A DNA stretch of 48,378 nt from an uncultured Clostridia bacterium (GTDB taxonomy: Bacteria; Bacillota; Clostridia; HGM11327), in assembly GCA_945918795.1 (NCBI GenBank), contig CAMEIT010000012.1:1-48378 (forward strand), written 5' to 3'. Positions 3,483 to 39,539 of the stretch are shown piece by piece (position 1 is the first letter of the stretch; each line of letters starts with the position of its first letter). Below the pieces are notes generated by a model. That model was given only the letters and a program-made list of their open reading frames with translations, was not told where the DNA came from and did no database searches. Made by a program: the position numbers and the translations under genes.

Positions 3483-5465
3483 ATGAAGAAAGTATTATCA
3501 ATCCTATTGGTAATCGCATTGTCAGTCACACTGTTTGCGGGCTGCGGAGAGAAGCCGTCATCAAATCCTGATTCATCGGCTGACCCGACGCCTACACCGA
3601 CGAGTGACACAATGAGAAGACCGACATATTCGAATCAACTCGACGATGTCATAAGATTCAATCTCTACGATGAGGCTGATTTTATGACACGTTGGACAGA
3701 CGTAAGCAAGGAATGGATGCTCAATAATTATCATTTGGCTATAAACAATTCTATACCGAATGTATGGACATCTGATACATTGAACCTTTCCGATGCCGAC
3801 ACAAGAAAGACGTATAACACCGCTTTTGCACAGCTGTTCCTTACGCCGGATACATATCCGGATTATATGCCTGCGCTTCACGCAAATGCGGCAGGTACGG
3901 ACGCTTGCTTTAAGGAGCTGTATGATTACCTTGTAGACCTCAATCCTTTCATTGAGGAAGGTCAGATACTTCACAACTATGTATCATGGGTTTGGGCAGG
4001 TGCAGAGGACTATTGGGAATCTGCAAAGAAGATGTTCGAGGTTGACGGAGCGCTTTACGCTTTGCCGAGAAGAGAAATGATGCCTACACAGACATATCTG
4101 TGCTATGCCGAAAAGCTTCTCAACGACGTTAACTATCAGTTTGACAACCTCCCGACAACATGGGACGGCTTCGTTGATGTACTCAGAGCATTCAAGAACC
4201 TCTCAAAGGATAACATTCCTTTCGTACAGGACGGAGCAAGACTCGATACGCTCTTGAAGTTCATTGCTTCAACATACGGTCTTGATTTTAACATGGACTT
4301 CTCTTGGACAACCAAGAACGGCGAACCGCTTTGGACATATTATTGGGATGAGTATCTCCAGATTCTCCAGAGAGCAAACGAGCTCGCTGCAGAAGGCCTT
4401 GTTTACACAGACTCGGTTGAAACAAAGAGAGTCGTTCACTACGACATGAACGATACAGCAAGCGGCAGAAAGTATGCTTTGAGAAATTATGCAACAAATG
4501 CTGCTATGGGCTTGTCCGTTGCATCTTACACAACGTCTGCTCAGGCTGCAATATGGTCTTCTGACCCGAGAGCTGTTACAGATTGGAAGGTTTCACCTGT
4601 AATGATTTCTCAGGAAGGCAAGCAGTACTCATTGATAGGATCTTCACAGATCGACACATCATGGGTTGCAATAGGCAACAGACTCGGTGATGAATTTGCA
4701 CTTCGTATTTGCGATATGCTTTCATATTCCGCAAGTGATGAAGGCTACCTCAGATATTTCTTCGGCAAAGAGGGCGATCCTTTTGCTGATTCAGCTGAAG
4801 AAGCAGGTAACTACATCTGGGTATATGATGAAGATTCAGGCGAAGACAGAATCCGTTTTGCAGTTGCTGACAGATTCGGCGGCGTAAATGAGGACCTTGA
4901 CTTCTGGAAGACAGTCGATGAGCATTATGCTATGCTTGACAAGAACATTAACCTCGGCGAAGCAGAGTGGGACGAATCAGGCAACCTCGCTGACAAATAC
5001 GGCGTTACGGGAACAGGCTTCTATCCGTCATGGCGTAACTTCAAGCTCGGAACTATCTGGTATGCAGACATTACATCATATCCGATGCAGATGACTGTAT
5101 ATTGGGAGAAGCAGGAAGCAATGGGCAGAGGCGACATGAAGAGCATTGAAGGCTTGACATCAGTTGCCGAATCAAATAACTCTGTAATTTACAACGGCTT
5201 CTACAAGACACCTAAGGAAGCACTCGGCGCAGAGAGTAAGGATATTGAGACAAAGATTTCAGATCTTTCCTCGATCGCTAAGCAGTTCACAATCGACTTC
5301 CTCAGCGGAAAGAAGACGGCTACACACTGGGATTCTTACATTAAGGATCTTAAGACTGCAGGCTATGATGACGTTTACGAATTCTATAAGGCAACAGCAT
5401 ACAGCTTCCCAACATCAACAGTTTCGGGTACTGAGTCTCAGTCATCGGTAAACGCAAAAAGATAA
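3483..5465 (+). CDS. Extracellular solute-binding lipoprotein, tandem copy 3
   Basis: A 660-residue lipoprotein paralogous to copies 2 and 4 and to the fragment at the window start. The start follows GGAGGAG (3473-3479). The lipobox is LFAGC with Cys21, then a Pro/Thr linker. The mature protein has the same arrangement as copy 2. It differs mainly in the linker, in the stretch after the conserved YALRNY (NAAMGLSVASYTTSAQAA), in the segment after DRFGG (NEDLDFWKTVDEHYAML) and near KSIEGLTSVAESNN. These scattered blocks between nearly invariant runs would fit binding-site divergence on a fixed scaffold. It is its own transcription unit. Substrate unknown; the class is inferred as for copy 2. 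Confidence 0.85.
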   Translation: MKKVLSILLVIALSVTLFAGCGEKPSSNPDSSADPTPTPTSDTMRRPTYSNQLDDVIRFNLYDEADFMTRWTDVSKEWMLNNYHLAINNSIPNVWTSDTLNLSDADTRKTYNTAFAQLFLTPDTYPDYMPALHANAAGTDACFKELYDYLVDLNPFIEEGQILHNYVSWVWAGAEDYWESAKKMFEVDGALYALPRREMMPTQTYLCYAEKLLNDVNYQFDNLPTTWDGFVDVLRAFKNLSKDNIPFVQDGARLDTLLKFIASTYGLDFNMDFSWTTKNGEPLWTYYWDEYLQILQRANELAAEGLVYTDSVETKRVVHYDMNDTASGRKYALRNYATNAAMGLSVASYTTSAQAAIWSSDPRAVTDWKVSPVMISQEGKQYSLIGSSQIDTSWVAIGNRLGDEFALRICDMLSYSASDEGYLRYFFGKEGDPFADSAEEAGNYIWVYDEDSGEDRIRFAVADRFGGVNEDLDFWKTVDEHYAMLDKNINLGEAEWDESGNLADKYGVTGTGFYPSWRNFKLGTIWYADITSYPMQMTVYWEKQEAMGRGDMKSIEGLTSVAESNNSVIYNGFYKTPKEALGAESKDIETKISDLSSIAKQFTIDFLSGKKTATHWDSYIKDLKTAGYDDVYEFYKATAYSFPTSTVSGTESQSSVNAKR

Positions 5466-5657: not shown

Positions 5658-5680
5658 AAAACTATATTATGGAGGATTAT

Positions 5681-7651
5681 ATGAAGAAAGTATTATCAAT
5701 TTTATTGGTAATCGCATTGTCAGTCACGCTGTTTGCGGGTTGCGGCAAAGATCCTACATCGGATCCCGGCTCAACAGTTGACCCGACGCCTACGCCGACG
5801 GGTGAAACAATGAGAAAACCTCAGTATGGCGAAATAATAAGATTCAATCTTTATGATGAGGCTGATTACATGACACGCTGGACAGACGTAAGCAAGGAAT
5901 GGATGCTCAATAACTATCAATTGGCTATAAACAATTCAATACCGAATGTTTGGACAGGAGATACATTGAACCTTTCCGATGCTGACACAAGAAAAACATA
6001 CAACACTGCTTTTGCACAGCTGTTCCTCACGCCGGATACATATCCGGATTATATGCCTGCGCTTCATGCAAATGCGGCAGGTACGGACGCTTGCTTTAAG
6101 GACTTGTATGATTATCTTGTAGATCTCAATCCTTTCATTGAGGAAGGACAGATACTTCATGGCTATGTTTCATGGCTGTGGGAAGGCGCAGAGGACTATT
6201 GGGAATCTGCAAAGAAGGTGTTCGAGGTTGACGGAGCACTTTACGCTTTGCCGAGAAGAGAAATGATGCCTGTACAGACATATCTGTGCTATGCTGAAAA
6301 GCTTCTCAACGATATTAACTATCAGCTTGATACGCTTCCGACAACATGGGACGGCTTCGTTGATATTCTCAGAGCATTCAAGAACCTCTCAAGTGATAAC
6401 ATTCCTTTCGTACAGGACGGAGCAAGACTTGATTCACTCTTGAAGTTCATTGCTTCAACATACGGTCTTGATTTTAATATGGACTTCTCATGGACGACAA
6501 AGAACGGCGAACCGCTCTGGACGTATTATTGGGATGAATATCTCCAGATTCTCCAGAGAGCAAACGAGCTTGCGGCTGAAGGACTTGTTTACACAGATAC
6601 TGTTGAAACAAAGAGAGTTGTTCATTACGACATGAACGATACTGCAAGCGGCAGAAAGTATGCTTTGAGAAATTATAAAACAAATGCGTCTATGGGCTTG
6701 TCTATTGCATCTTACACAACATCAGCTCAGGCTGCAATATGGTCTTCTGACCCGAGAGCCGTTACAGATTGGAAGGTTTCTCCTGTAATGATTTCTCAGG
6801 CCGGAAAGCAGTTCTCATTGATAGGAACATCACAGATCGATACATCTTGGGTTGCAATAGGCAACAGACTCGGTGAGGAATTTGCTCTTCGTATTTGCGA
6901 TATGCTTGCATACTCCGCATCAGATGAAGGCTACCTCAGATACTTCTTCGGTAAGGAAGGCGTTCCGTTCGGTTCTTCAGCTGAAGAAGCAGGTAACTAC
7001 ATCTGGGTATACGATGAGGATTCAGGTGAGCAGAGAATCCGCTTTACTGTTGAAGACAGATTCGGCGGAGTGCCGGCAGATCCGGATTACTGGATAAGCC
7101 TCGACGAGCATTTTGCGGCATTCACAAAGACAGGCGTTACAGGTGAAATGTGTTGGGACGAAGCGGGTGACCTCGCTGATAAATACGGCGTTACGGGCAC
7201 AGGCTTCTATCCGTCATGGCGTAACTTCAAGCTCGGTACTATCTGGTATGCAGACGTTACATCATATCCGATGCAGATGACTGTATATTGGGAGAAGCAG
7301 GAAGCAATGGGCAGAGGCGACATGAAGAGTATCCAGGGTATAAGAGCGATTGCCGATTCAAATAATACGGTAATTTACAACGGCTTCTACAAGACACCTA
7401 AGGAAGCACTCGGCGCAGAGAGCAAGGATATTGAGACAAAGATTTCAGACCTTTCTTCAATTGCAAAGCAGTTCACAATAGACTTCCTCAGCGGAAAGAA
7501 GACGGCAACACACTGGGATTCTTACATTAAGGACCTTAAGACTGCAGGCTATGATGACGTTTATGAATTCTATAAGGCAACGGCATACAGCTTCCCGACA
7601 TCAACAGTTTCGGGTACCGAATCACAGTCATCGGTAAACGCAAAGAGATAA
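5681..7651 (+). CDS. Extracellular solute-binding lipoprotein, tandem copy 4
   Basis: A 656-residue lipoprotein, the last of the tandem array. The start at 5681 follows GGAGGA at 5671; an in-frame ATG at 5669 overlaps that ribosome binding site and is rejected. The signal with lipobox LFAGC and Cys21, the Asp/Pro/Thr linker and the overall scaffold are shared with copies 2 and 3. It lacks a few residues after the linker (QYGEIIRF versus longer versions) and has its own variable block after DRFGG (ADPDYWISLDEHFAAFTKTG). Its terminator is unrelated to those of copies 1-3, which marks the downstream end of the duplicated unit. No permease or ATPase gene is adjacent, so it must work with a transporter encoded elsewhere; the CUT1 locus at 36-48 kb is one candidate. 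Confidence 0.85.
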   Translation: MKKVLSILLVIALSVTLFAGCGKDPTSDPGSTVDPTPTPTGETMRKPQYGEIIRFNLYDEADYMTRWTDVSKEWMLNNYQLAINNSIPNVWTGDTLNLSDADTRKTYNTAFAQLFLTPDTYPDYMPALHANAAGTDACFKDLYDYLVDLNPFIEEGQILHGYVSWLWEGAEDYWESAKKVFEVDGALYALPRREMMPVQTYLCYAEKLLNDINYQLDTLPTTWDGFVDILRAFKNLSSDNIPFVQDGARLDSLLKFIASTYGLDFNMDFSWTTKNGEPLWTYYWDEYLQILQRANELAAEGLVYTDTVETKRVVHYDMNDTASGRKYALRNYKTNASMGLSIASYTTSAQAAIWSSDPRAVTDWKVSPVMISQAGKQFSLIGTSQIDTSWVAIGNRLGEEFALRICDMLAYSASDEGYLRYFFGKEGVPFGSSAEEAGNYIWVYDEDSGEQRIRFTVEDRFGGVPADPDYWISLDEHFAAFTKTGVTGEMCWDEAGDLADKYGVTGTGFYPSWRNFKLGTIWYADVTSYPMQMTVYWEKQEAMGRGDMKSIQGIRAIADSNNTVIYNGFYKTPKEALGAESKDIETKISDLSSIAKQFTIDFLSGKKTATHWDSYIKDLKTAGYDDVYEFYKATAYSFPTSTVSGTESQSSVNAKR

Positions 7652-16903: not shown

Positions 16904-19228
16904 ATGGAAGCAGAACTCTTCTCTCCGTATATAGTTGATATATTGGTAGGGGAAGGAATGAGACCGGAGAGCGTACTGCTTACAGCTTGCTGTGACAGAT
17001 CTCTTGACGACAAGTTTGAAGATACATATGTTTTCCTATGTATTGACAAGGTTGGCTTTCTGACAGTAGAGTATGATAAGCAGGTAAGTAAGGTTTATAA
17101 TGGATTTGTTTTGAAAAAAGGTAAAAAACAATCCGACGAAAAAAGTAATATTCCTTGCAGGAAGAAAAGATACCTTCAGTATAAACTGAGCGATATTAAA
17201 GAGCTGAGACTTGTTAATCTCGTTGCTTCAGGTGAACTGTTTGTTAAGTTTGAAGACGAAACAAAAGAAACGCTGGCAGTTTCCGCTTATACGAACGCCT
17301 GTGTTTCGGATCTTGCGAAAATTTCCCGCGCTATTGACAAAATAAAGAAAACAGGAACTCTAAATTTTGCGGAGTTCAAGGATAAGGATGATGAAATCTG
17401 CTGCCCCAAGTGCGGCATGATGTATGTTGATAAGGTGCGCAAGGTGTGCCCGCGTTGCGCAAACAGAAAGTCTACCTTCACACGCTTGCTGAAGCTTGTT
17501 CCGAAGTATAAAAAGAACGTTATAATTGCCGCGATAATGACGTTGATTGTAAGCTTGCTCGGACTTGTTCAGCCGTATATGTCGGGTACCATTCTTTTTG
17601 ATAAGGGTCTCAATGCCGAATCGGGCGGATTCTGGTACGGCAAGGTCGGCCTTATAGTCGGTATTATAGTTCTTACATATCTTCTTTATACGGTTCTGAC
17701 CGCTATACTGAATATAAACATGAATACCATGGCTCAGAACATGATGTATGACTTGAAGCTTGATATATTCAAGTCGTTCCAGACAATGTCAATGGGCTTC
17801 TTCACAAAGAACCGTATCGGCGGCATCATGAACAGAATCAATAACGATACGACTGCTGTTGCAAGATTCTTCATAAGCGGTATTCCGTTTTTGATGATAA
17901 GCATAATTCAGTTTATCGGAGGATTGGTAATGCTCATAAAGCTCAATCCCAAAGTAATTATTCTTGCGGCACTCCCTGCATTTGTTATTATTGTTATACT
18001 CAAAGCAACAAATAAATATATGTGGAGATTGTACCAGAAGGCATGGAACATAGGTTCAAAGCTTACATCGAGCGTAAGCGACAGCTTGAGAGGTGTTAAG
18101 GTCGTAAAGGCGTTCGGTAAGGAAAAGGACGAGATAAGCAGATTTGAAAAAATCAATCAGAAGTGCTTCAAGATAAATTATAAGCTTTGCTACACGACAA
18201 ACCTGCTCAATCCTATTTACAGCCTTGTTATAAGCATAGTAACATACGGTATCTGGATCATAAGCGGTATGGAAATCGTTAACGGAGCTACGGGTATGTC
18301 TTACGGTGTTCTTGCAAGTACGCTTTCATATTTCGGCATGATGCTCACGCCTATACAGTCATTCTCGAGCTTTATGGAATGGTGGAGAAACGCAATGAAC
18401 TCCGCACAGAGAATGTATGACCTTATTGACGTTGACCCTGACGTAAAGGAATCAAATCATCCCGTTGTTATGGATAAGGTCAAGGGCGATATTAATATTA
18501 AGAATGTAAGCTTCGGATATGAACCTAACAATACAATACTCAAGAACCTGAACGCGGATATTAAAGCAGGTGAGATGATAGGTATTGTAGGCCATTCCGG
18601 TGCGGGAAAGTCAACGCTTATTAACCTTATTACGAGAATGTACGATGTTGATGAAGGCTCGATAAGCATTGACGGCTATGATATTAAGGATATTGCCATG
18701 AGAACATTGCGTGACAATATCGCTCTCGTAACTCAGGATACGTATATTTTCCAGGGAACAGTGCTTGAAAATATAGCATACGCAAATCCCGAGGCAAAAA
18801 GAGAGGACGTTATTGCCGCTGCAAAAATTGCAAAAGCACATGACTTTATTGAAGCAATGCCTGAAGGCTATGATACAATGGTTGGCGCCGGCTACAGAAG
18901 TATGTCCGGCGGTGAAAGACAGAGAATTTCTATTGCAAGAGCTATTCTCATAAATCCGAGAATACTTATTCTGGATGAGGCTACTGCGGCTCTTGATACC
19001 GAAACGGAAATGAGCATTCAGGATGCGCTCGATAATCTGACAAACGGCAGAACAACGCTTGCTATTGCTCACAGACTTTCGACTCTCAGAAATGCAGACA
19101 GACTTATTGTTATAGAAAACGGTGAAATTACGGAAATGGGTACTCACAGTGAGCTTGTTAAGAATAAGGGCGTATATTACAGACTTATGCTTAAACAGGC
19201 AGAGGCTCTGAAAACTAAAGGCGTTTGA
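16904..19228 (+). CDS. ABC exporter half-transporter with N-terminal domain and zinc ribbon
   Basis: A 774-residue ABC half-transporter. Order: an N-terminal beta-rich domain (about 1-150) that looks like a bacterial PH-type fold (YVFLCIDKVGFLTVEYD, SGELFVKFEDETKETLAVS); a four-cysteine zinc ribbon (Cys167, 170, 182, 185); a six-helix exporter membrane domain (about 205-500); and a nucleotide-binding domain with Walker A GHSGAGKST (563-571), signature SGGERQR (668), Walker B ILILDEAT (Asp691, Glu692) and the switch His723. All catalytic residues are present. The start follows AAGGTG. It heads an operon with DUF1854 and a second half-transporter, and the two probably form a heterodimer. The cargo is unknown. 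The N-terminal PH-like reading is an inference. Confidence 0.88.
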   Translation: MEAELFSPYIVDILVGEGMRPESVLLTACCDRSLDDKFEDTYVFLCIDKVGFLTVEYDKQVSKVYNGFVLKKGKKQSDEKSNIPCRKKRYLQYKLSDIKELRLVNLVASGELFVKFEDETKETLAVSAYTNACVSDLAKISRAIDKIKKTGTLNFAEFKDKDDEICCPKCGMMYVDKVRKVCPRCANRKSTFTRLLKLVPKYKKNVIIAAIMTLIVSLLGLVQPYMSGTILFDKGLNAESGGFWYGKVGLIVGIIVLTYLLYTVLTAILNINMNTMAQNMMYDLKLDIFKSFQTMSMGFFTKNRIGGIMNRINNDTTAVARFFISGIPFLMISIIQFIGGLVMLIKLNPKVIILAALPAFVIIVILKATNKYMWRLYQKAWNIGSKLTSSVSDSLRGVKVVKAFGKEKDEISRFEKINQKCFKINYKLCYTTNLLNPIYSLVISIVTYGIWIISGMEIVNGATGMSYGVLASTLSYFGMMLTPIQSFSSFMEWWRNAMNSAQRMYDLIDVDPDVKESNHPVVMDKVKGDINIKNVSFGYEPNNTILKNLNADIKAGEMIGIVGHSGAGKSTLINLITRMYDVDEGSISIDGYDIKDIAMRTLRDNIALVTQDTYIFQGTVLENIAYANPEAKREDVIAAAKIAKAHDFIEAMPEGYDTMVGAGYRSMSGGERQRISIARAILINPRILILDEATAALDTETEMSIQDALDNLTNGRTTLAIAHRLSTLRNADRLIVIENGEITEMGTHSELVKNKGVYYRLMLKQAEALKTKGV

Positions 19229-19247
19229 TTTATAAAGGAGAAAAAAT

Positions 19248-19802
19248 ATGAGTGAAAGCATTATAGATTCGGTAGACATAGATTACATAGATCCAAAAGA
19301 AGCTAAATTCAATATAACAGAAAATCATATTCTTACATTAGACCTTAACGGAGTACATTATCCGTGTGTTCAGCTGCACAGATCGTTTCCGTTCACAAAT
19401 CCGGATCAATACATATCGGTAAGAGACGATGATGACAGCGACAAGGACGAGGTAAGAGAAATAGGTAACGACAAGAAAAAAGAAATCGGCATAATCCGCG
19501 ACTTGAACGAGTTTGATGCGGTAACAAGAAAGATTCTCGACAAGTATCTTGAGCTGCGTTATTTCGCACCGGCAATAATAAGAATCATATCGATACGCGA
19601 GGAGTTCGGTTACAGATATTGGACAGTTGAGACAGACAAGGGCGTGTGCAAATTCACAACTCGTCTCGGCAGAGGTACGGTAGTAACGGTAGGCTCGGGC
19701 GACAAGGTAATGATTTACGATGTTGACGGAAACAGATTCCAGATACCGAGCTTCTCGCAGATAGAGTCTAAGACCAGAAAACAGATCGAAATGTTTATGT
19801 AA
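19248..19802 (+). CDS. DUF1854 family protein
   Basis: A 184-residue acidic cytoplasmic protein resembling DUF1854 (Pfam PF08909). As I recall, that domain is found at the C-terminus of some ABC transporters and as a separate protein beside them, including near cyanophycin genes. Visible: YIDPKEAKFNITENHILTL, VQLHRSFPFTNPDQYISVRD, an Asp/Glu/Lys-rich low-complexity insert (residues about 62-84), EIGIIRDLNEFDAVTRKILD, ELRYFAPAIIRIISIREEFG, YWTVETDKGVCKFTTRL. It starts behind AAAGGAG, 19 bases after the first ABC gene. Function unknown; it is a likely accessory or ligand-handling subunit of the flanking ABC pair. Confidence 0.78.
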   Translation: MSESIIDSVDIDYIDPKEAKFNITENHILTLDLNGVHYPCVQLHRSFPFTNPDQYISVRDDDDSDKDEVREIGNDKKKEIGIIRDLNEFDAVTRKILDKYLELRYFAPAIIRIISIREEFGYRYWTVETDKGVCKFTTRLGRGTVVTVGSGDKVMIYDVDGNRFQIPSFSQIESKTRKQIEMFM

Positions 19803-19818
19803 CGGCGTTTAACTTTTG

Positions 19819-19858
19819 AAAGGAGCATTTTTACCGCTTGCCTTGTAAGCGGCGGTAG
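19819..19858 (+). promoter_or_regulatory. Ribosome binding site separated from the start by a hairpin
   Basis: AAAGGAG (19819-19825) is 32 bases from the GTG start at 19858, too far in linear terms. Between them lies an inverted repeat that can fold in two registers: TACCGC/GCGGTA (19832-19837 with 19852-19857) or CCGCTT/AAGCGG (19834-19839 with 19847-19852). The first register leaves six unpaired bases between the ribosome binding site and the hairpin and puts the start right after the stem, so folding could restore normal spacing. Confidence 0.45.
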
Positions 19859-22095
19859 TGAGTGATTTTATTATGAAACTTAATTTTGAATTGCCCGAAA
19901 AGGTCAAGCTTAAGGTATTGCAGTCTCTTATGACAGACATATTGTATGCGGTGCCTTTGGGAATGGACGTTACCGGTCAGAAGAGAAAGGAAAGCTGGTT
20001 TGTTATCGGTACGGACAAATGGCTTACGGTACAGGACGGAGAAATCGAAAAGGTAGAATATATTGCGCACTGCAAGGATTTTCTGCTCAAGCCTATGGTA
20101 GGTAACGCATATATCAAAGCTACCGTTGACGGCAGAGTATCCATAATCGCCAGATTCTCCATGACTGACGTTGTAAGATACGGATACATTGTACAGATAC
20201 TCAATCAGATGGCAGCAAATCAGCCTGTCAAGATTTACAATAACGATAATGACAAGGTTTGCCCTGTATGCGGACGTATACTTATAAGAGGTACCAACCT
20301 TTGCCCTAAGTGCAGTAAAAAGGGTCAGGCTGTAAAGCAGATAGTAACAATGGCGAAGCCGTATATGATATTTATGGTTATTTCGCTCATTATATATCTT
20401 ATTACAACGGTTCTTTCACTTAAGGAAGTAACATATTACCAGAAGATAGTCGATGAATGCTTCGGCGGAGGCGGCACAAAGGAACAGTTCTTTAAGTATA
20501 TGTTCATAGTTATAGGACTCGGACTCGGTGCTTTCTTCCTTAATATTGTAGCCGCAATATCCGATAACAATTTTACACAGCGATTTGCAAAAAGACTCAG
20601 AAAAGCTGTTTTCGATAAGGTTCAAAGTCTTTCGGTAAGCTACGTTTCAAACGCAAGCCCGGGCGACATTATGAACCGTACCTTCTCGGATACAAACGAA
20701 ATAAACACCTTCATCAGAACCGTATCCGTAAACCTTATAAAGGCTGTGTTCCTGTTTATAGTTGCTACTGTTATGATGCTCCAGATGAACTGGAAAATGG
20801 CTCTTGTAATAATGATTCCTGCGCCTCTTGCGTTCTATATTCAGATAGGCGCTTGGAATAAGTTCATGAAGAAGGTATTCAAGGGACTCAGAGTTGCAAA
20901 CGATAAAGCAAATTCTTATCTGCATGACGTTGTAAGCGGTATAAGAGTTGTAAAGGTTTTCGGTACGGAAAAAAGAGTTACGGCAAAGTTCCGTAAGCTT
21001 GCAAGAAATGTAGCAGACCAGGATATTAAAGGTCAGACGCTCGTTGAATGGTTCGGACCGCTTACATCTATAATACTGTACCTCGGTCAGTATGCGATAT
21101 ATTTCTTCGGCTGTATGGCAATACTCGGAGAGACTATGACTTTGGGTGAGCTTGTTGCGTTTAACACGATAGCTCAGAAGTTCTATGCGCCTCTCAATCA
21201 GCTCATACTTATGCCGCGTCAGATTGCAAACTCTATGATTTCCGTTCAGCGTGTTTATGAAATTCTCAATCAGGTTCCCGAAATCAGAGACCAGAACACA
21301 AGCACAGAGCATAAGATTGAGGGTAACATTGAATTCCAGGGCGTAAGCTTCGGCTACAATTCATATGACCACGTTTTGAATGATATTAACTTTACCGTTA
21401 AAAAGGGCGAGATGATAGGCCTTGTAGGTCGATCCGGCTCGGGCAAGAGTACACTTACGAACCTTGTATGCCGCTTCTATGACGTAAATGAGGGAAGCAT
21501 AAAGATTGACGGCAAGGACATAAGAGATATTCAGCAAAGCTCTCTTACAAGTCAGATAGGTGTCGTTCTTCAGGAAAACTTCCTGTTCAGCGGTCCGCTG
21601 TTTGAAAACATAAGATATTCAAAGCCCAATGCTACTCCGGAAGAGGTAATAAGGGCGGCTAAGATAGCAAATGCTCATGAATTTATAATAAATCTCCCGG
21701 ACGGCTATGATACGTGGGTTGCCGAGGGCGGCAGCAACTTCTCGGGCGGTGAAAAACAGAGAATTGCCATTGCAAGAGCTATACTCAGCGATCCTGCAAT
21801 CCTTATTCTTGACGAGGCAACATCGGCTCTTGACGTTGAAACAGAGGCTCAGATTCAGGAAGCTTTGCAGAGACTTATTGAGGGCAGAACGACGTTTGCG
21901 ATTGCTCACAGACTTTCTACGCTCAAGAATGCAAACAGACTTTTCGTTATGGATAAAGGTAAGATAGTTGAAATGGGTACGCATGACGAGCTTCTCAAGC
22001 GAAAGGGAATATATTACAGCCTTGTTATGGCTCAGCGTACTATGGCAAAGAGAAAGGGAAAAACAGATACGGTTTCTGAAATATTGGCTAATTAA
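19858..22095 (+). CDS. ABC exporter half-transporter 2 with N-terminal domain and zinc ribbon
   Basis: A 745-residue partner of the first ABC half-transporter with the same layout: an N-terminal domain (SWFVIGTDKWLTVQDGEIEK... VSIIARFSMTDVVRYG), a zinc ribbon (Cys135, 138, 149, 152), six membrane helices (about 160-450), and a nucleotide-binding domain with Walker A GRSGSGKST (524-532), signature SGGEKQR (629), Walker B ILILDEAT (Asp652, Glu653) and His684. Both halves of the presumed heterodimer therefore keep full catalytic sites. GTG at 19858 is used here; ATG at 19873 would shorten the protein by five residues. The usual ribosome binding site is displaced upstream by a hairpin. The next gene starts two bases after the stop. 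Confidence 0.87.
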   Translation: MSDFIMKLNFELPEKVKLKVLQSLMTDILYAVPLGMDVTGQKRKESWFVIGTDKWLTVQDGEIEKVEYIAHCKDFLLKPMVGNAYIKATVDGRVSIIARFSMTDVVRYGYIVQILNQMAANQPVKIYNNDNDKVCPVCGRILIRGTNLCPKCSKKGQAVKQIVTMAKPYMIFMVISLIIYLITTVLSLKEVTYYQKIVDECFGGGGTKEQFFKYMFIVIGLGLGAFFLNIVAAISDNNFTQRFAKRLRKAVFDKVQSLSVSYVSNASPGDIMNRTFSDTNEINTFIRTVSVNLIKAVFLFIVATVMMLQMNWKMALVIMIPAPLAFYIQIGAWNKFMKKVFKGLRVANDKANSYLHDVVSGIRVVKVFGTEKRVTAKFRKLARNVADQDIKGQTLVEWFGPLTSIILYLGQYAIYFFGCMAILGETMTLGELVAFNTIAQKFYAPLNQLILMPRQIANSMISVQRVYEILNQVPEIRDQNTSTEHKIEGNIEFQGVSFGYNSYDHVLNDINFTVKKGEMIGLVGRSGSGKSTLTNLVCRFYDVNEGSIKIDGKDIRDIQQSSLTSQIGVVLQENFLFSGPLFENIRYSKPNATPEEVIRAAKIANAHEFIINLPDGYDTWVAEGGSNFSGGEKQRIAIARAILSDPAILILDEATSALDVETEAQIQEALQRLIEGRTTFAIAHRLSTLKNANRLFVMDKGKIVEMGTHDELLKRKGIYYSLVMAQRTMAKRKGKTDTVSEILAN

Positions 22096-22897: not shown

Positions 22898-22926
22898 TTG
22901 ACATGTATTGACAAAAGTGTTATACT
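22898..22926 (+). promoter_or_regulatory. Sigma-A promoter of the PBP-carboxypeptidase gene
   Basis: TTGACA (22898-22903), 17 bases, TATACT (22921-22926). A second TTGACA (22909-22914) lies inside the spacer but is at the wrong distance. The leader is about 100 bases long. Confidence 0.88.
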
Positions 22927-23034
22927 TACATATATAAGCGTATTTATACTTTCCGTCTGATGCGTTTTTTTAGCTTATTGAAAAAATTTCATTATGCACC
23001 AAAGCATATGGAAATTTGTTTAAGGAGGAATAAT

Positions 23035-26000
23035 ATGTCCGGCTCAAAAAAGTCAAACAGCTTTAAGGATACGGCAATAGGATCATTTTTCAGCAGAATA
23101 TACTTGAACATAAAAAATAAATCAATCGGCAACGGTAACGGCACAAGGAGAACTCCTCAGCATGATACTGCCGATGCCGGGAAAGGAAGCATTGCGGATA
23201 CTTTGCAAAGAGCATGGGCTTCGGTAAAGGGATTTTTTATAAATATTGCTCATAAGATGTCCGATAGTCAGACTACAAAAAAAATAATGGGCGCAGTACG
23301 GTCATTTTTTGCAATGGCAGCCGTAAAAGTAAAGGCATTCTTTTCGGCAGCAAAACGTTTTTTTGCAAATACTGCCCGCAAATTGTCTGAAAGCAATGCG
23401 ATTAAAAAAATATTGGGCGCAATAGGTGCGTTTTTTGCGATGATAGCAGCAAAAATAAAGCATTTTTTCTCAGCGGAGAATTTTGCTGCAATAAAATCCG
23501 GTATAAACGGATTTTTTGCGAAATTATTCGGCAAAAATAAGCAAGCAACCGTAAACGAAGCGGAAGATCCCGCAAATGAAAACGAATCTGATTCTGCCGA
23601 AACAGAGGTTCACAAAGAACCTATCAAAAGGGAAAAACATAAGAAAAATATATTCATGGCGCTTTGTATATCCGTGCTTGCGGCAGTTGTTCTGTTTTTC
23701 AGAAAAATCAAATGCTTGGCCAAAAAAGCATTTGCCGGAGCCGGAAAGCCGAAGGTTGATGCTCAGGATAAAGTTGCCGAAGCAAAAGCGTCTGATGCAG
23801 GTGAGAACAACACAAATAAAAACAACGTACGCCGTATACCGCAGGCAGAACCTGCTCGCGAAATTACCGATGTTGAACAAAGTAAGCCTGTCGTTGAGCC
23901 TTTGAATATTATTGAAGACGAAAATGAAGTACATTCCAGCGAGTCGATTGCTGTGGACCCTGTATTGCCGATAATGGATATAAGAAAGCTTGAGTCAAGG
24001 AGTGACAGGAAAAATCGTACTGAAAAAAATAAAAAGTCTGACGATGATGAGGATGAAGAAAAGCACAGCATCTGGGTAAGAGACAGGAGACCTTTTTTCC
24101 TTGTTTCGATAGGTGTTTCTGTTTGCAGACTTTGTTTGCTTCTTGTGATAATGGCAGGCTTTGCAGGCCTCGGAATCGGTCTCGGTGTTGCGAGAGCATA
24201 TATTGCATCGGCACCTGAATTGAGTGTTGAGAAAATAGAAAACAATGACCAGACATCTTTTATATATGACTGCAACGGAAATCTCATAACGGAATATTAT
24301 AACCTTGAAAACAGATCGTGGGCAAGCTACGACGAGATTCCTACCATGCTCAAATATGCTGTCGTTGCAAGTGAAGACGAATCGTTTTTTGAACATAACG
24401 GATTCAATTTCAAGCGTATATTTGCATCTGTTTTAAGTGACCTCAGCGGTGGCTCCGTACAGGGCGGAAGTACAATAACACAGCAGGTATTAAAGCTAAC
24501 GCTCCTGACGTCTCAGCAGACGTATAAACGTAAAATTCAGGAAATTTATCTGGCGTATCAGCTTGAAAAGGAATATACCAAAGAGGACATTCTTGAATGG
24601 TATATGAATATAATGCCTATGGGCGGACTTTTGTACGGAGTCAAATCTGCCTCGGAGGACTATTTCGGGAAAGAGCTGAGTGAGCTTACATTACGTGAGT
24701 GCGCGGTTCTTGCGGGTGCGACGAATGCTCCGACGTATTATGATCCGAGACTGTGTATGCTGTCCGAGGATGACGGAGGATATGGAGAAAAAGGCAGGCT
24801 GAGGCTGTATAACAGAGCAAACTACGTTCTTACCCAGATGTATGCGGTCGGATTTATATCGGAGGAAGAATATAACGATGCTTTGTTTGATACCGAGGAC
24901 CTTGTTTCGGATCAGCTGGTGGTAAATCCCACTTCGACGAATTATACTTATGAGCATAAGTATTATATAGAATATGTTCTTGATGAGCTTGTAACAAGAC
25001 TCAAAGAGGCAAACGGCTGGGAAGGTAAAACGGGAACTGAACAGGCATATTCGCTTTTGAGATCAGGCGGCTTTAAGATTTATACCGCACTTGACGTTGA
25101 AAAGCAGACTAAGGTTGAAAATGCCGTATATTCATACGAAAATTGGCCTAAGCTTCTTGATCCGTCCGATAATATAAGCACAGGCGGCATTGAACAGCCT
25201 CAGTGCGCCGTAATGGTAATAGACAATTCAACAGGATATATTGCGGCAGTTGTCGGAGGCAGAACTGAGCCGACAATAAGATTCGGACTTAACAGAGCAT
25301 ACCAGTGCGTATTGCCATTCGGTTCTTCAATAAAACCGCTGTCTGTATACGGACCTGCTCTGGACAGAGGCTTGCTCGGGAATATGGTTATTGAAAACAT
25401 ACCTGTACCTATAAACGGGTGGCAGTCAACCAATGGCTTCCCACAGAACTTTGATAAAACATATTGCGGTCCGATGTCCGTATCATACGCTCTTTACAGA
25501 TCAATGAACGTCCCGACATCGAGAATATTGCTTGGAAGACTTACGCCTCAGGTGTCATACAGCTATCTGCGTTCTCTTAATATATCCGAGAGCGTGTTGT
25601 CAATGAGCCCTTCGCTCCTTGCACTCGGTTCAACAGGAAGCTACCTTGTTGAATACGCTGCGGCATTTGCAACTTTTGCAAACGGAGGCGTTTACAGAGA
25701 GCCATTGTCAATAACGAAAATCATAGACAAAGACGGAAATGAATTGTTCAGTGAGGAAAATCAGATTTATAAGCAGGTATTCAAAAAGTCCACTGTTTAT
25801 ATTATAACCGAATGGCTTAACAGAGCAGTATCACAGGGTAACAAGCCGTTGACGTATCTTACGGTTAACAAGGATATTCAGGTTGCAGGTAAAACGGGTA
25901 CCAACGAGAATTCGCGCGGAATTGCATTCATGGGTTATACGAAATATTATACCTGCGGTGTATGGATGGGCCACGATGACTTTAAGCCTCTGTATGCTTC

Positions 26001-27942
26001 CGGTTTTGATGATGCAAGACCTTTCTGGATAACCATAATGGATAGCCTGCATGAGGGGCTTGAGAGTGCAAACATTTACGATGAAGTGCCGGATGACGTA
26101 ATTGAGGTTACTGTCTGCGGAGTATCGGGCTTGTTGCCGAACGGCGAGGTTTGCGATCATGATCAGAATGGCTACGGAACGACAACGGAATACTTTGTAA
26201 AGGGCACGGAACCGACTCAAGTATGCGATATGCACAAAGAGGTTGCATACTGCACGGTATCGGGCAAGCTTGCGGGCAAATATTGCTCTGAGGACGAAAT
26301 TGAGTATAAAACGGCTGTAATACTTCCCGAAAAATCAGAATACCTTAAGCTTATTGATTCTGATTACGAATATCTGTTGTATGAATACTTCCCGTTGTAT
26401 TTTGTAAACGATGTGCCGTATATGGACGGTGCTTCGGGAGAAGAGTGCTACTGTGATATTCATACGGAAGAGACGGAAGGTCTGCTTGCACAGAAACTGG
26501 AAATGATGCGAAAAGCGGATGCGCTTATCCGTGACATCAACAGCAAGCTTAAGCTTTCAAAATACAGCATGAATATAAGCCCTGCTCAGACTAAACAGAT
26601 AAGCGATGCGGGAGCGTTACTGAAGGAGCTTGTAAACGCGCCTGTATTCAGCCTTAATCCCGACACAAAGGTATTCAACAAGGAAGAGACGGAGGCGGCA
26701 TATAATCAGCTTGAAGCTGTTTCGAACGAGATATTTGAGTCGATTGATGCAAAGCTGCAGCTCAAGTCTGATTTCACGACATTGGGCAACAGACTGATAG
26801 GTCAGATAAACATCAAGCTTCTCAGAGCCGATTACGCATCTGTCATTACGGTTGATGAAATTGTTTCTATCAACAGAGATATGGATGCGTTCAGAGATGC
26901 GCTTGACGCACCGATATATTCAAGTGATTCAAGCGTCGAATTGTTTGACGAGGAGATTGTAAGACAGTGTTACAACACATTGCAGCTCAATTCCGATACA
27001 TTGTTTGCAGCACTTGACGAACGCTTGAAGGAGCCTGTCGATCCCGATCCGGATGATGAAGACAAGATCATTTCGGTATTTAAGGATGATGAAACAGTCG
27101 ATCTTGATTTGGAATTGCTTTCACAGTACGCTGTTTTGATAGAAGCTTCAACAGGCAGAATATTGGCACAGAAAAATGCCGATGTTCAGATGTATCCTGC
27201 ATCTATGACAAAGATAATGGCTGTTATAGTTGCATATGAATATATGCGTGACAACAACATAGATATGGACAGCACGTATATTATGCTGACGGAAGACATT
27301 ATAAGCTACATCGAAGAGAAGAATACCGCATCGGCAGGCTTTGAAGCGGGCGAGGTCGTTTGCATAAAGGATTTGTTCTACGGTGCCGTAATGCAGTCGG
27401 GAGCAGATGCAGTGATAATGCTCGCACGTTACTGCGCGGGAACAGAAAATGCCTTTGTGACGCTGATGAACAGCAAGGCTGCTGCACTCGGCTTACAAGA
27501 CACTAACTTTACAAATTGCATAGGTATTACTGACGTAAATCATTACAGTACGGTAAACGATATGGCGGTAATACTTGCATATGCCAACAATTACACCTTC
27601 CTCAGGAATGTAATGGAGGCAAATACATACACGTATAAATCAACGAATAAGCAGGCGCAAAGAAGCGTAAAGAGCGGACTCCATTCGGCACGTATAAAAT
27701 ACGATATGGATATTGAAAATTCCGCAGTTGCCGGAGCCGATAATTTCGGAGGCAAGACGGGTTATACGGATGAAGCCGGATACTGCATGATGACATTTGC
27801 ATACGGAGCAAACGGAAAGTATATCGCGGTTACTGCGGATACGGCTCTGAGCAAGGATGCTGTTTCGGATTATCTGTACCTTTACTCAAATTATTCGGCG
27901 TTGAGTGACAGTGAGAGTGAAAGCGAGAGCGAGGGTATATAA
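23035..27942 (+). CDS. Fused class A penicillin-binding protein and D-Ala-D-Ala carboxypeptidase
   Basis: A 1635-residue membrane-anchored wall enzyme; ordinary class A PBPs are 650-950. Start at ATG 23035 after AAGGAGG. Order: a Lys/Ala/Phe-rich cytoplasmic part with near-repeat blocks (KKIMGAVRSFFAM, KKILGAIGAFFAM); a hydrophobic stretch about 208-225; an acidic/basic linker; a membrane anchor about 352-380; GT51 transglycosylase with EDESFFEHNGF (catalytic Glu447) and GGSTITQQ; transpeptidase with SSIK (Ser764-Lys767), SMN (823-825) and KTG (953-955); a Cys-containing region; two tandem helical repeats (about 1165-1335); then a peptidase S11 domain with SMTK (Ser1390-Lys1393), SGA (1455-1457, usually SGN) and KTG (1574-1576). 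GT51 polymerises glycan, the transpeptidase crosslinks, and S11 trims the terminal D-Ala. Single-gene unit with its own promoter and terminator. Confidence 0.9.
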   Translation: MSGSKKSNSFKDTAIGSFFSRIYLNIKNKSIGNGNGTRRTPQHDTADAGKGSIADTLQRAWASVKGFFINIAHKMSDSQTTKKIMGAVRSFFAMAAVKVKAFFSAAKRFFANTARKLSESNAIKKILGAIGAFFAMIAAKIKHFFSAENFAAIKSGINGFFAKLFGKNKQATVNEAEDPANENESDSAETEVHKEPIKREKHKKNIFMALCISVLAAVVLFFRKIKCLAKKAFAGAGKPKVDAQDKVAEAKASDAGENNTNKNNVRRIPQAEPAREITDVEQSKPVVEPLNIIEDENEVHSSESIAVDPVLPIMDIRKLESRSDRKNRTEKNKKSDDDEDEEKHSIWVRDRRPFFLVSIGVSVCRLCLLLVIMAGFAGLGIGLGVARAYIASAPELSVEKIENNDQTSFIYDCNGNLITEYYNLENRSWASYDEIPTMLKYAVVASEDESFFEHNGFNFKRIFASVLSDLSGGSVQGGSTITQQVLKLTLLTSQQTYKRKIQEIYLAYQLEKEYTKEDILEWYMNIMPMGGLLYGVKSASEDYFGKELSELTLRECAVLAGATNAPTYYDPRLCMLSEDDGGYGEKGRLRLYNRANYVLTQMYAVGFISEEEYNDALFDTEDLVSDQLVVNPTSTNYTYEHKYYIEYVLDELVTRLKEANGWEGKTGTEQAYSLLRSGGFKIYTALDVEKQTKVENAVYSYENWPKLLDPSDNISTGGIEQPQCAVMVIDNSTGYIAAVVGGRTEPTIRFGLNRAYQCVLPFGSSIKPLSVYGPALDRGLLGNMVIENIPVPINGWQSTNGFPQNFDKTYCGPMSVSYALYRSMNVPTSRILLGRLTPQVSYSYLRSLNISESVLSMSPSLLALGSTGSYLVEYAAAFATFANGGVYREPLSITKIIDKDGNELFSEENQIYKQVFKKSTVYIITEWLNRAVSQGNKPLTYLTVNKDIQVAGKTGTNENSRGIAFMGYTKYYTCGVWMGHDDFKPLYASGFDDARPFWITIMDSLHEGLESANIYDEVPDDVIEVTVCGVSGLLPNGEVCDHDQNGYGTTTEYFVKGTEPTQVCDMHKEVAYCTVSGKLAGKYCSEDEIEYKTAVILPEKSEYLKLIDSDYEYLLYEYFPLYFVNDVPYMDGASGEECYCDIHTEETEGLLAQKLEMMRKADALIRDINSKLKLSKYSMNISPAQTKQISDAGALLKELVNAPVFSLNPDTKVFNKEETEAAYNQLEAVSNEIFESIDAKLQLKSDFTTLGNRLIGQINIKLLRADYASVITVDEIVSINRDMDAFRDALDAPIYSSDSSVELFDEEIVRQCYNTLQLNSDTLFAALDERLKEPVDPDPDDEDKIISVFKDDETVDLDLELLSQYAVLIEASTGRILAQKNADVQMYPASMTKIMAVIVAYEYMRDNNIDMDSTYIMLTEDIISYIEEKNTASAGFEAGEVVCIKDLFYGAVMQSGADAVIMLARYCAGTENAFVTLMNSKAAALGLQDTNFTNCIGITDVNHYSTVNDMAVILAYANNYTFLRNVMEANTYTYKSTNKQAQRSVKSGLHSARIKYDMDIENSAVAGADNFGGKTGYTDEAGYCMMTFAYGANGKYIAVTADTALSKDAVSDYLYLYSNYSALSDSESESESEGI

Positions 27943-27965
27943 TAAAATATAAACGGTACGTTTTG

Positions 27966-28002
27966 AGCTTCGGCAGAAATTGAATTTTGCCGAAGCTTTT
28001 TT
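27966..28002 (+). terminator. Rho-independent terminator of the PBP fusion gene
   Basis: Agcttcggca (27966-27975) pairs perfectly with tgccgaagct (27988-27997), followed by a six-T run. Confidence 0.92.
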
Positions 28003-36419: not shown

Positions 36420-39400
36420 ATGTGTTTGTATTTGCGTAGAGGTATAATCAAGTATTGCAAAAAATTTATTGCGATGTTTTCGGTTACTACCCTGATTATA
36501 ACGGGTCTTGTCACCCCGCGCGCATTTGCGGCGGATACTGCCCAATCAGCCGGAGAAAGCAAAAGCTCATCAGAGCTTATCAGCGTGGGTGATGAAGATA
36601 TCAGGTACAACGCTTATTTACAAGAAATTGAGGAAGCGGCGAAGAATAACAATATCACTATTAAGGATTACGATGGCAGTGATATAGTTTTGACGCCGGC
36701 AGATGCTGTATGCACAGACGAAACCGAGGATTCAACTCCGGATAACCCGATTTATGTTGAAACTCCGCTTGGCGAAGAAGCAGGCGAGGATAATATTATC
36801 AAGTGGACAGAGGATTACACTGCTTTTACATGGACAGTTAATGTTCCCAAAACAGGATATTATCAGATTGCGATAGACTACATAGGCGCTGCTGACGGAC
36901 TCGGCATAAATCCGTCAAGAGGTATTGCCATAAACGGCAAGATTCCGTTCTTTGAGGCTATAAACATAAGCTTCAAGAAGTGGTGGAAGGATTCAGCCGA
37001 ACCTATTGAAAATCTGCTTACACATGACGAAACTGCTGCGCCTTTGGAAGAGATTCGTCATTGGGCTACTGTTGATCTGCGCGATACAGACGGATATTAT
37101 ACAGCGCCTTTCAAATTCTATCTTGAAGCCGGAACAAATACTATTACGCTTAACTATGTTAACCGTACAATGTTTGTAGGCAATCTTTATCTTAAGGCAC
37201 CGCAGAAGCTGCAGGATTATGCAACTGTTTCGGCAGGATATTCCGAATATGACGCATCGGGAATAGAAAAACAAACGTTCCAGGCAGAGGATATAAGCAA
37301 GATAGTCGAGAAATCATCAAACATGATGAGACTTACCGCAAGCAAGAATACGTCTGTTACTCCGTTCAAGAGCGGCTATACAATTATCAACCAGGTAGGC
37401 GGTTCAACAAACTGGTATTGCGACAGAGACTCATATACATGGAAGTTCACGGTTCCGGAAGACGGTCTTTACAAGATAGCGCTCAGAGTATCAAACAACG
37501 TTAACATCGGTATGCCTGTGTACAGACAGATTTATATCGATGACGAGATTCCGTTCTCTGAATTTGCGGCTTATAAGTTCAATTACAACTATAACTATTA
37601 TACAGAGACGCTTTCCGATGATGAGGGCAATCCTTACCTCTTGTATCTGAAAGCGGGCGAGCATACGATCAAATTGGAAGTTGTCATGGGTGACTTGGGA
37701 CCTATCGCTCTTTCATTCTATTCAGAGACTGAAACACTGAATAAGCTCACAAGACAGATTCAGAAGATCATAGGTGATTCACCTGACCCGAACTACAATT
37801 ACAGACTTGAGGACAGAGTTCCGGGTCTCATGGATTCTTTGCATCAGCTCCTCGCAAATTACGAAGAGATGATAAAGACTCTTGAGATTGCCTGCGAAAC
37901 GGAATCATCAACATTGATAAACGACCTTAAGTCTTCTATGGATACACTCAGTGAATGTATTGCGGACCCGATTGATATTCCTAACAGAATGACTGACCTC
38001 CAGTCGATTCAGACAAACATGGGTACATGGATTTCAACACTCGAAAGCTCTTCACTCATGATAGACTTCATCGAGATATGTCAGCCTCAGGCACAGGTAA
38101 CTGAACCAAAGACATCTTTCTGGGCAAGCCTTAAGAGCGTTTGGGATTCCTTTATCGTATCATTCACAAAGGATTACAGCTCCCAGATGGAACAGATCAA
38201 AAACGAGGGCGGAGAAGTAGTTGAAATCTGGATGTCAAAGGACAGAGAAAACGCAGATATGATCATATCATTGCTGAATGCAGAATTCGGCAATAACAGA
38301 CACAATTTCTCAATCAACATGAGAATCGTTCCGGGACAGATCGATTTCGGTTCATTCAACCTCCTGTTGCTTTCATTGATGTCAGGTCAGGAGCCTGATA
38401 TGATATGGGGCTGTGGAAGCACAACGCCTATTCAGTATGCAATAAGAGGCATAGGATATAACCTTGAACAGTTTGACGACTTTGAAGAGGTAACGTCACG
38501 TTTCTGTGAAGCTACAATGCAGGCACTGCGTTATACGGATAACACGGGCGAAAGAAACGGAACGTTCGGCTTGCCTGAGACAACAAGCGTAAACCTCGCG
38601 TTCTACCGCAAGGATATATTCGAAGAGCTCGGATTGTCGGTACCGCAGACATGGGATGAGTATTTTAACGACGTACTCCCTGCGTTCTATAAAGAAGGTT
38701 ATATACCGATAGCGGGCGATGCGGGTGCATGGCTCCTCCAGAGAGGCGGCTGGCCGACACGTGCTGACAACAGACTCAGCGGATACGACACGGAAATTGC
38801 ATATGAGGTATTGACGGATAACTTCAATCAGTATTTGATATACGGTATCGACGTTGCCGTTGAATCATTCCAGGGCTTCAGAAACGGTGAAGTTCCTTAT
38901 ATGACAGGCGGACTTGATGTATATACAAAGCTTATGGTTGCGGCTCCTGAGCTTATGGGCAAGTGGGGCATTGCATTGACTATGGGTACTATTGATGAAT
39001 ACGGTATTAACAACAGGACAAACTTCGGCGCAGGTCCGGGTTCTGCACTTGCCATAATGCCGAATACACAGCACGCAGACAAATGCTGGGAGATTATGAA
39101 GTGGTGGACTTCTACCGATATTCAGATAGAGTACTCAAGCATGGTAGATGCTAAGTTCGGTCAGGAAAACAGATGGTACAGCGCAAACGTTGAAGCACTT
39201 CTTTCAATGTCATGGACAACTAAGGAGCGCGAAGTTATAAGAGAATCGTTCAATTGGTACTGCAATATGCAGCAGATACTCGGAAGCTACCAGATGGACA
39301 GATATTCAAACTTTGCGTTTAACCAGGTTGTAATTCAGGGTAAGAACGCGCGTGATGCCATTGAAGAAATGGTTGCATATGTAAACCCCGAGCTTGTAAG

Positions 39401-39539
39401 AAAGCAGGAGCAGTATGATATAACACCTGCTTCAGAAGAAGAGATTGCAAACAAGGTTTACGATATAACGGCTCTCGACAGAGTTTCCTATTACAGAAAG
39501 CTCAGAGAGGAAGCCCAGAAAGCTCAACAGAAAGGATGA
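36420..39539 (+). CDS. Large extracellular solute-binding protein with N-terminal beta-sandwich domains
   Basis: A 1039-residue secreted protein heading the transport locus. Signal peptide about 1-37 (positively charged start, hydrophobic core, PRAFA cleavage, then ADT); there is no lipobox, unlike the four lipoproteins at the window start. Residues about 95-225 and 290-430 look like two carbohydrate-binding-type beta-sandwich domains (TWTVNVPKTGYYQIAIDYIG and TWKFTVPEDGLYKIALRVSN are equivalent strands; FYLEAGTNTITL and LYLKAGEHTIKL likewise). A helical linker (430-580) leads to a family 1 solute-binding domain (about 590-1000: MSGQEPDMIWGCGSTTPIQY, NLAFYRKDIFEELGLSVPQT). The start follows AAGGG. 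It should feed the adjacent CUT1 permeases with a complex glycan. No lipid anchor is seen, so how it stays near the membrane is unclear. Confidence 0.85.
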   Translation: MCLYLRRGIIKYCKKFIAMFSVTTLIITGLVTPRAFAADTAQSAGESKSSSELISVGDEDIRYNAYLQEIEEAAKNNNITIKDYDGSDIVLTPADAVCTDETEDSTPDNPIYVETPLGEEAGEDNIIKWTEDYTAFTWTVNVPKTGYYQIAIDYIGAADGLGINPSRGIAINGKIPFFEAINISFKKWWKDSAEPIENLLTHDETAAPLEEIRHWATVDLRDTDGYYTAPFKFYLEAGTNTITLNYVNRTMFVGNLYLKAPQKLQDYATVSAGYSEYDASGIEKQTFQAEDISKIVEKSSNMMRLTASKNTSVTPFKSGYTIINQVGGSTNWYCDRDSYTWKFTVPEDGLYKIALRVSNNVNIGMPVYRQIYIDDEIPFSEFAAYKFNYNYNYYTETLSDDEGNPYLLYLKAGEHTIKLEVVMGDLGPIALSFYSETETLNKLTRQIQKIIGDSPDPNYNYRLEDRVPGLMDSLHQLLANYEEMIKTLEIACETESSTLINDLKSSMDTLSECIADPIDIPNRMTDLQSIQTNMGTWISTLESSSLMIDFIEICQPQAQVTEPKTSFWASLKSVWDSFIVSFTKDYSSQMEQIKNEGGEVVEIWMSKDRENADMIISLLNAEFGNNRHNFSINMRIVPGQIDFGSFNLLLLSLMSGQEPDMIWGCGSTTPIQYAIRGIGYNLEQFDDFEEVTSRFCEATMQALRYTDNTGERNGTFGLPETTSVNLAFYRKDIFEELGLSVPQTWDEYFNDVLPAFYKEGYIPIAGDAGAWLLQRGGWPTRADNRLSGYDTEIAYEVLTDNFNQYLIYGIDVAVESFQGFRNGEVPYMTGGLDVYTKLMVAAPELMGKWGIALTMGTIDEYGINNRTNFGAGPGSALAIMPNTQHADKCWEIMKWWTSTDIQIEYSSMVDAKFGQENRWYSANVEALLSMSWTTKEREVIRESFNWYCNMQQILGSYQMDRYSNFAFNQVVIQGKNARDAIEEMVAYVNPELVRKQEQYDITPASEEEIANKVYDITALDRVSYYRKLREEAQKAQQKG

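Follow-up and report, generated by a model that had tools for sequence, protein, structure and literature searches.

A single open frame of 1635 amino acids at 23035-27942, on the + strand of the window (the whole 48,378-nucleotide stretch of DNA analysed, which comes from an uncultured clostridial genus), encodes a class A penicillin-binding protein (PBP) that runs on into a peptidase S11 domain. In a frame scan the stop-free frame extends over 22960-27942 (1660 codons), but ATG 23035 is a better start than 22960: homologues begin there, the protein of one congener has a similar MSxxxK start, and a ribosome-binding site, AAGGAGG, can be read from the sequence at 23022-23028 (+), 6 bases 5' of the ATG. 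The continuous 1635-residue frame proposed in an earlier note on this DNA is thus borne out. Residue numbers used here are those of that note plus 25, so that ATG 23035 encodes Met26. The window genome is designated G000 below, its two congeners G001 (the one with the similar start) and G002, and a genome of another genus in the same family G003.

A promoter-like site on the same strand (TTGACA-17-TATACT with an extended -10; 22898-22926) was located by a consensus scan as an 11/12 match, which is a match and not proof, since shuffling leads one to expect 1.4 such sites in a region of the same size. At 27965-27998 (+) there is an intrinsic terminator-like hairpin of 14 pairs followed by a T run, for which the shuffled expectation is 0.1. 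The promoter-like site 5' and the strong terminator-like hairpin 3' suggest that the fused gene is probably transcribed alone. The gene order ABC, DUF1854, ABC, ylmH, PBP, with GH123 further downstream, is shared with G001. The ABC-DUF1854-ABC set, which is syntenic in that genome, occupies 16904-22095 of the window, where a DUF1854 gene flanked by two ABC transporter ORFs makes up a set that is similar to the cyanophycin-associated one (NF052233, NF052234) at scores below the cut-offs. Elsewhere in the window, two 660-aa lipoprotein-like ORFs that are 89% identical and have no Pfam match lie side by side as direct duplicates (3483-5465 and 5669-7651), and a 1039-aa ORF (36420-39539) matches a solute-binding protein family over residues 649-902 only.

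Domains of the fused protein

The N-terminal region ahead of the membrane segment (23035-24084, +), which is basic, has repetitive amphipathic stretches and is poorly conserved between congeners (24-33% identity), may be cytoplasmic. These ~350 residues also hold another hydrophobic patch, IFMALCISVLAAVVLFF, which has an equivalent in each congener. The putative membrane-spanning segment itself (FFLVSIGVSVCRLCLLLVIMAGFAGLGIGLG...; 24091-24189, +) was recognised by eye as a hydrophobic stretch before the GT51 glycosyltransferase domain. That domain (residues 440-627; 24277-24840, +; PF00912, E 7.7e-57, 192 bits) is 85-90% identical between congeners and has the catalytic-Glu motif EDExFxxHxG, as EDESFFEHNGF at 472, and GGSTITQQ at 502. 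The transpeptidase domain (residues 750-984; 25207-25911, +; PF00905, E 9.3e-19 with the whole protein) is 60-67% identical, with SxxK, SxN and KTG all present (SSIK 789, SMN 848 and KTG, in KTGT, 978); the GT51 and transpeptidase motifs are intact in the congeners as well.

Beyond the transpeptidase, alignments define a Cys-containing C-terminal region (26053-26469, +) that is common to unfused class A PBP homologues of the class. The link to the S11 domain consists of two tandem copies of a helical bundle (26470-27054, +; internal repeat, hhalign probability 98.4), 38-50% identical between congeners, in which an AlphaFold model places one continuous helix of ~48 residues with pLDDT mostly 85-95. 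The S11 domain follows (residues 1385-1627; 27112-27840, +; PF00768, E 7.7e-43, 147.1 bits against a cut-off of 27.6). Its motif 1, SMTK (TCT ATG ACA AAG, 27202-27213, +), supplies the nucleophile Ser1415 and Lys1418; motif 2 is SGA (in SGAD 1480; 27397-27405, +), typical of its clade on comparison; and motif 3, read from the sequence, is KTG (in KTGY 1599; 27754-27762, +). All the motifs that the earlier note had listed, from EDESFFEHNGF to the KTG of S11, were located where it had placed them, and the Pfam search that it had proposed puts PF00912, PF00905 and PF00768 above their curated cut-offs in one frame.

Distribution of the architecture

The order is represented in the collection by 4 genomes with completeness of 78-95%, among them three species of the genus, two of these from assemblies that are 78-79% complete. 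Both congeners have the same GT51-transpeptidase-S11 architecture in single frames (1619 and 1563 codons) at ~53-55% identity, with alignments covering residues 170-1648 and 141-1647. Their assemblies are recorded as SIG351 (G001) and RGIG9120 (G002, a metagenome-assembled genome whose source is given as a water deer's rectum) and are independent of that of the window. The window genome is a draft in 122 contigs, and a fusion created by assembly or binning has to be considered on that account; the probability that we give it is negligible, because the same junction recurs at 53% identity in the independent assemblies SIG351 and RGIG9120 and because the single frame is bounded by one promoter-like and one terminator-like site. 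An assembly or binning join was therefore rejected, and a stop or join between the transpeptidase and S11 parts, which would have undone the earlier note's proposal, is excluded by the congeners, which share the junction in single frames.

In the sister genus, G003 has the PBP without S11. Further afield, 391 class genomes and 399 phylum genomes (~770 different ones) were surveyed. The matches listed, which were the best ~150 in each survey, included no other PBP-S11 fusion, so that an unrelated fusion elsewhere could be missed; nor did the matches listed for 291 class genomes outside the genus include an S11 domain in a frame longer than 773 codons. In scans of genome contigs the C-terminal part, used as query, found no match, and the full alignment matched the two congeners and unfused relatives. 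Four long class A PBP frames (L016, L017, L106 and L107) were read as candidate fusions and rejected, their tails being low-complexity or Ig-like rather than S11; this reading covered those four and left out some frames of 1110-1138 codons. Literature searches found no description of a PBP-S11 fusion. The same domain order has thus turned up in two congeners and in none of the other genomes among the matches listed, and the suspicion that it is unusual and undescribed is supported: this is a real, unusual and new domain architecture, limited to one genus as far as searched. In each of the 4 genomes of the order a single GT51 protein was found, which in the window genome is the fused one. Every genome of the genus also has one clear class B PBP, and G000 has three stand-alone S11 proteins.

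The S11 domain: clade, fold and catalytic residues

In solved S11 structures motif 2 is described as Ser/Tyr-Xaa-Asn/Cys (PMC12073871), a rule from which the window S11, with SGA, departs together with its whole clade. The earlier note had taken SGA as a reason to doubt activity, a doubt that does not survive comparison: the nearest stand-alone S11 relatives nearly all have SGA or SGG as motif 2, with SxTK and KTG intact. This clade survey, in which SGA/SGG is the rule, rules out SGA as a sign of damage. The window domain matches the clade at all three motifs; of the 45 columns that the clade conserves, it keeps the consensus in 38 and differs in 7. With all three clade motifs intact, the window S11 is probably active, although SGA could lower its activity.

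A maximum-likelihood tree places the three fused S11 domains in one clade (100/100) inside the SGA group (98/95) and the stand-alone S11 proteins of the genus outside it. Motif and tree together rule out the stand-alone S11 proteins of the same genome (L001 with SAND, L002 with SGND, L004 with NAD) as the source of the fused domain. Several genes of the SGA group lie 3' of a VanS gene, with four of the VanS proteins above the NCBIfam cut-off and, at one gene, a VanR-F/M regulator above cut-off, or have VanZ genes as neighbours, three of which exceed the Pfam cut-off. Stand-alone SGA-motif S11 genes beside genes for VanS-type kinases and/or VanZ-family proteins were seen in various families of the class (L083/L110, L084, L086, L087, L088, L089, L091 and L094). 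SGA as second motif seems to characterise a separate VanY-D-like S11 clade to which the SxN/SxC rule does not apply. The group is called VanY-D-like and not VanY-D because scores against NF000471 (VanY-D) are far below the cut-off of 625 bits: 28.5 bits for the fused S11 and 70-96 bits for stand-alone clade members. VanYD of Enterococcus faecium is, by the title of Reynolds' 2001 report, said to be a penicillin-binding protein. A related S11 with SGG as motif 2, annotated only as a serine hydrolase, is carried on the conjugative E. faecium plasmid pEfm12493 (L115:2805-3731). In viral contigs the window S11 as query found no match; the clade alignment as query found five S11 matches, two of them strong.

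An AlphaFold model of the S11 domain has a pTM of 0.83, with pLDDT <50 over model residues 223-237, the stretch that leads up to KTG; the first model, which took in the helical arm as well, was poor in the KTG region. Active-site geometry is consequently left outside our claims. Against solved S11 enzymes the model gives TM-scores of 0.70-0.80, the highest being with the Streptomyces K15 DD-transpeptidase, including its C98A mutant (about 0.80/0.88-0.89); sequence matches are stronger to carboxypeptidases (4k91, 5tr7).

The congeners hold a second surprise, which could not be seen from the window sequence alone: the catalytic Ser and Lys of their S11 domains are gone, and KTG is damaged. SMTK has become ELTN in G001 (GAG CTT ACA AAT) and DMTT in G002 (GAC ATG ACC ACG), and KTG has become VTG and KTA, respectively. 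At the site of the lost serine the codon change involves at least two positions, which sequencing error does not reasonably explain. G001 and G002 are sisters in the tree (100/98), so a single event may account for the missing Ser and Lys. Mutants of K15 in the lysine (K38H) and in Ser96 are reportedly nearly inactive, which bears on these losses. The earlier note's proposal that a linked carboxypeptidase sets crosslinking during synthesis consequently fares unevenly: it fits the window copy and cannot be the genus-wide function of the domain, the catalytic Ser and Lys being replaced in both congeners.

Origin and possible role

That the S11 domain might be a dying passenger, fused by accident, dead in two congeners, on its way out in the window species and without selected function, is suggested by the loss of catalytic residues in two of three species and by an S11 identity between congeners (43-47%) below the values for two of the genus's stand-alone S11 proteins (55-57% and 72%) and near that of the helical arm. 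We nevertheless consider this quite unlikely. The window domain has all its motifs. The congeners' domains are still recognised by PF00768 (85.7 and 126.7 bits), and the dead copies keep 30 and 35 of the 45 clade-conserved columns, as against 38 in the window. The S11 part is stop-free in all three lineages at ~45% identity; neutral drift to that identity, simulated with substitutions only and uniform rates, produces on average ~11 stops in two lineages, and zero stops, as observed in the congeners, were obtained in 0/300 runs. A recognised fold, conserved columns and the absence of stops in the dead copies suggest that the fold is maintained for some role besides hydrolysis. Preservation of the S11 module across the genus is not due to carboxypeptidase activity alone, and accounts based on trimming are weakened because two of the three species no longer have catalysis.

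One such account has the VanY-D-like domain serving tolerance to glycopeptide or similar antibiotics by clipping D-Ala-D-Ala at the synthase and so removing drug targets from new wall. The clade has members in vanRS-S11-vanZ neighbourhoods, VanY takes the terminal D-Ala off pentapeptides that have escaped remodelling (PMC8541618), and Clostridia have, according to a published survey, vanRS(YD)HAX arrangements in which the VanYD is DacC-like (PMC9689679). Against this stand the lost catalysis of the congeners, the absence of VanS above cut-off from the 4 genomes of the order, and the surroundings of the fused gene, which has ylmH upstream, is framed by a promoter-like site and a terminator-like hairpin of its own, and adjoins no van gene; among the stand-alone relatives whose neighbourhoods were read, the nearest (L109, family f26) has no van genes next to it either. 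We regard it as unlikely. Still less probable, in our judgement, is a second transpeptidase like that of Streptomyces K15, which would give the protein two crosslinking sites. The top TM-scores are to K15, and its C98A mutant (1es3) is altered at the motif-2 residue that is Ala here: Cys98 is the third residue of motif 2 (SGC), so that the mutant carries SGA. The fold cannot tell the two activities apart, however, the sequence matches are stronger to carboxypeptidases (4k91, 5tr7), and the site is dead in the congeners.

We lean instead towards the following account. The sole class A PBP found in the genome acquired a VanY-D-like S11 domain of the SGA type, most likely once, in the genus ancestor, by way of a duplicated arm; in the window species the domain would trim locally, and the role shared across the genus is probably also non-catalytic. 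The nearest unfused PBPs (40-47% identical) have one helical stretch, or a shorter form of it, and then a low-complexity tail. Because they end in one helical stretch, the helical arm was probably duplicated, and S11 then added, in the genus ancestor. Pentapeptides are the donors that a transpeptidase requires, and carboxypeptidases shorten them to tetrapeptides (PMC4632607). In the window species the S11 domain, if active, would cut the terminal D-Ala from pentapeptides on strands just made or docked, leaving fewer donors near its own synthase and so limiting crosslinking or setting the choice of crosslinkable strands. Class A PBPs can themselves do part of such trimming. In the congeners the fold is retained and a serine mechanism is impossible, and the common role would probably also be non-catalytic: holding or sensing pentapeptide stems, positioning the synthase in the wall, spacing it from the wall by means of the helical arm, or offering a platform for binding or for partners. 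It is possible, and we put it forward tentatively, that the S11 domain has been converted from a carboxypeptidase to a part of a class A PBP that binds stem peptides or regulates without catalysis, the window species standing before and the congeners after the catalytic loss; a wall synthase would then be controlled or positioned by a built-in pseudo-carboxypeptidase.

The fusion is a case of a carboxypeptidase domain from a resistance-associated VanY-D-like clade having been recruited into a core wall synthase. As long as D,D-carboxypeptidases and synthases are separate and redundant, it is difficult to test whether the former act on what one given synthase makes, and whether it is their catalysis or their presence that counts. 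Here synthase and trimmer are one molecule, the only class A PBP found, of which nature provides one apparently active and two inactive versions.

Among known systems, class A PBPs (nearest solved structure by sequence Pbp1a, 7u4h; NCBIfam TIGR02074, PBP_1a_fam) have the same GT51 and transpeptidase domains with all motifs, an N-terminal anchor and, in clostridial homologues, the Cys-containing C-terminal region. The fused protein differs in adding the duplicated helical arm and S11 after the transpeptidase, and it scores below the TIGR02074 cut-off (434.8 vs 508.75 bits). The class A PBP of G003 (L008) is 47% identical over residues 298-1134 and has a helical stretch near its C-terminus, but it lacks S11 and ends in a PEAT-repeat tail. 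The stand-alone VanY-D-like S11 proteins (NF000471; vanRS-S11-vanZ) share the S11 fold, SxTK, SGA and KTG and one tree clade with the fused domain, whereas here the domain is joined to a PBP, shows no sign of VanRS control and has lost its catalytic residues in the congeners. The Streptomyces K15 DD-transpeptidase (1skf, 1es3), finally, has the S11 fold at similar size, but it is free-standing, is a transpeptidase and is 26-27% identical to the fused S11.
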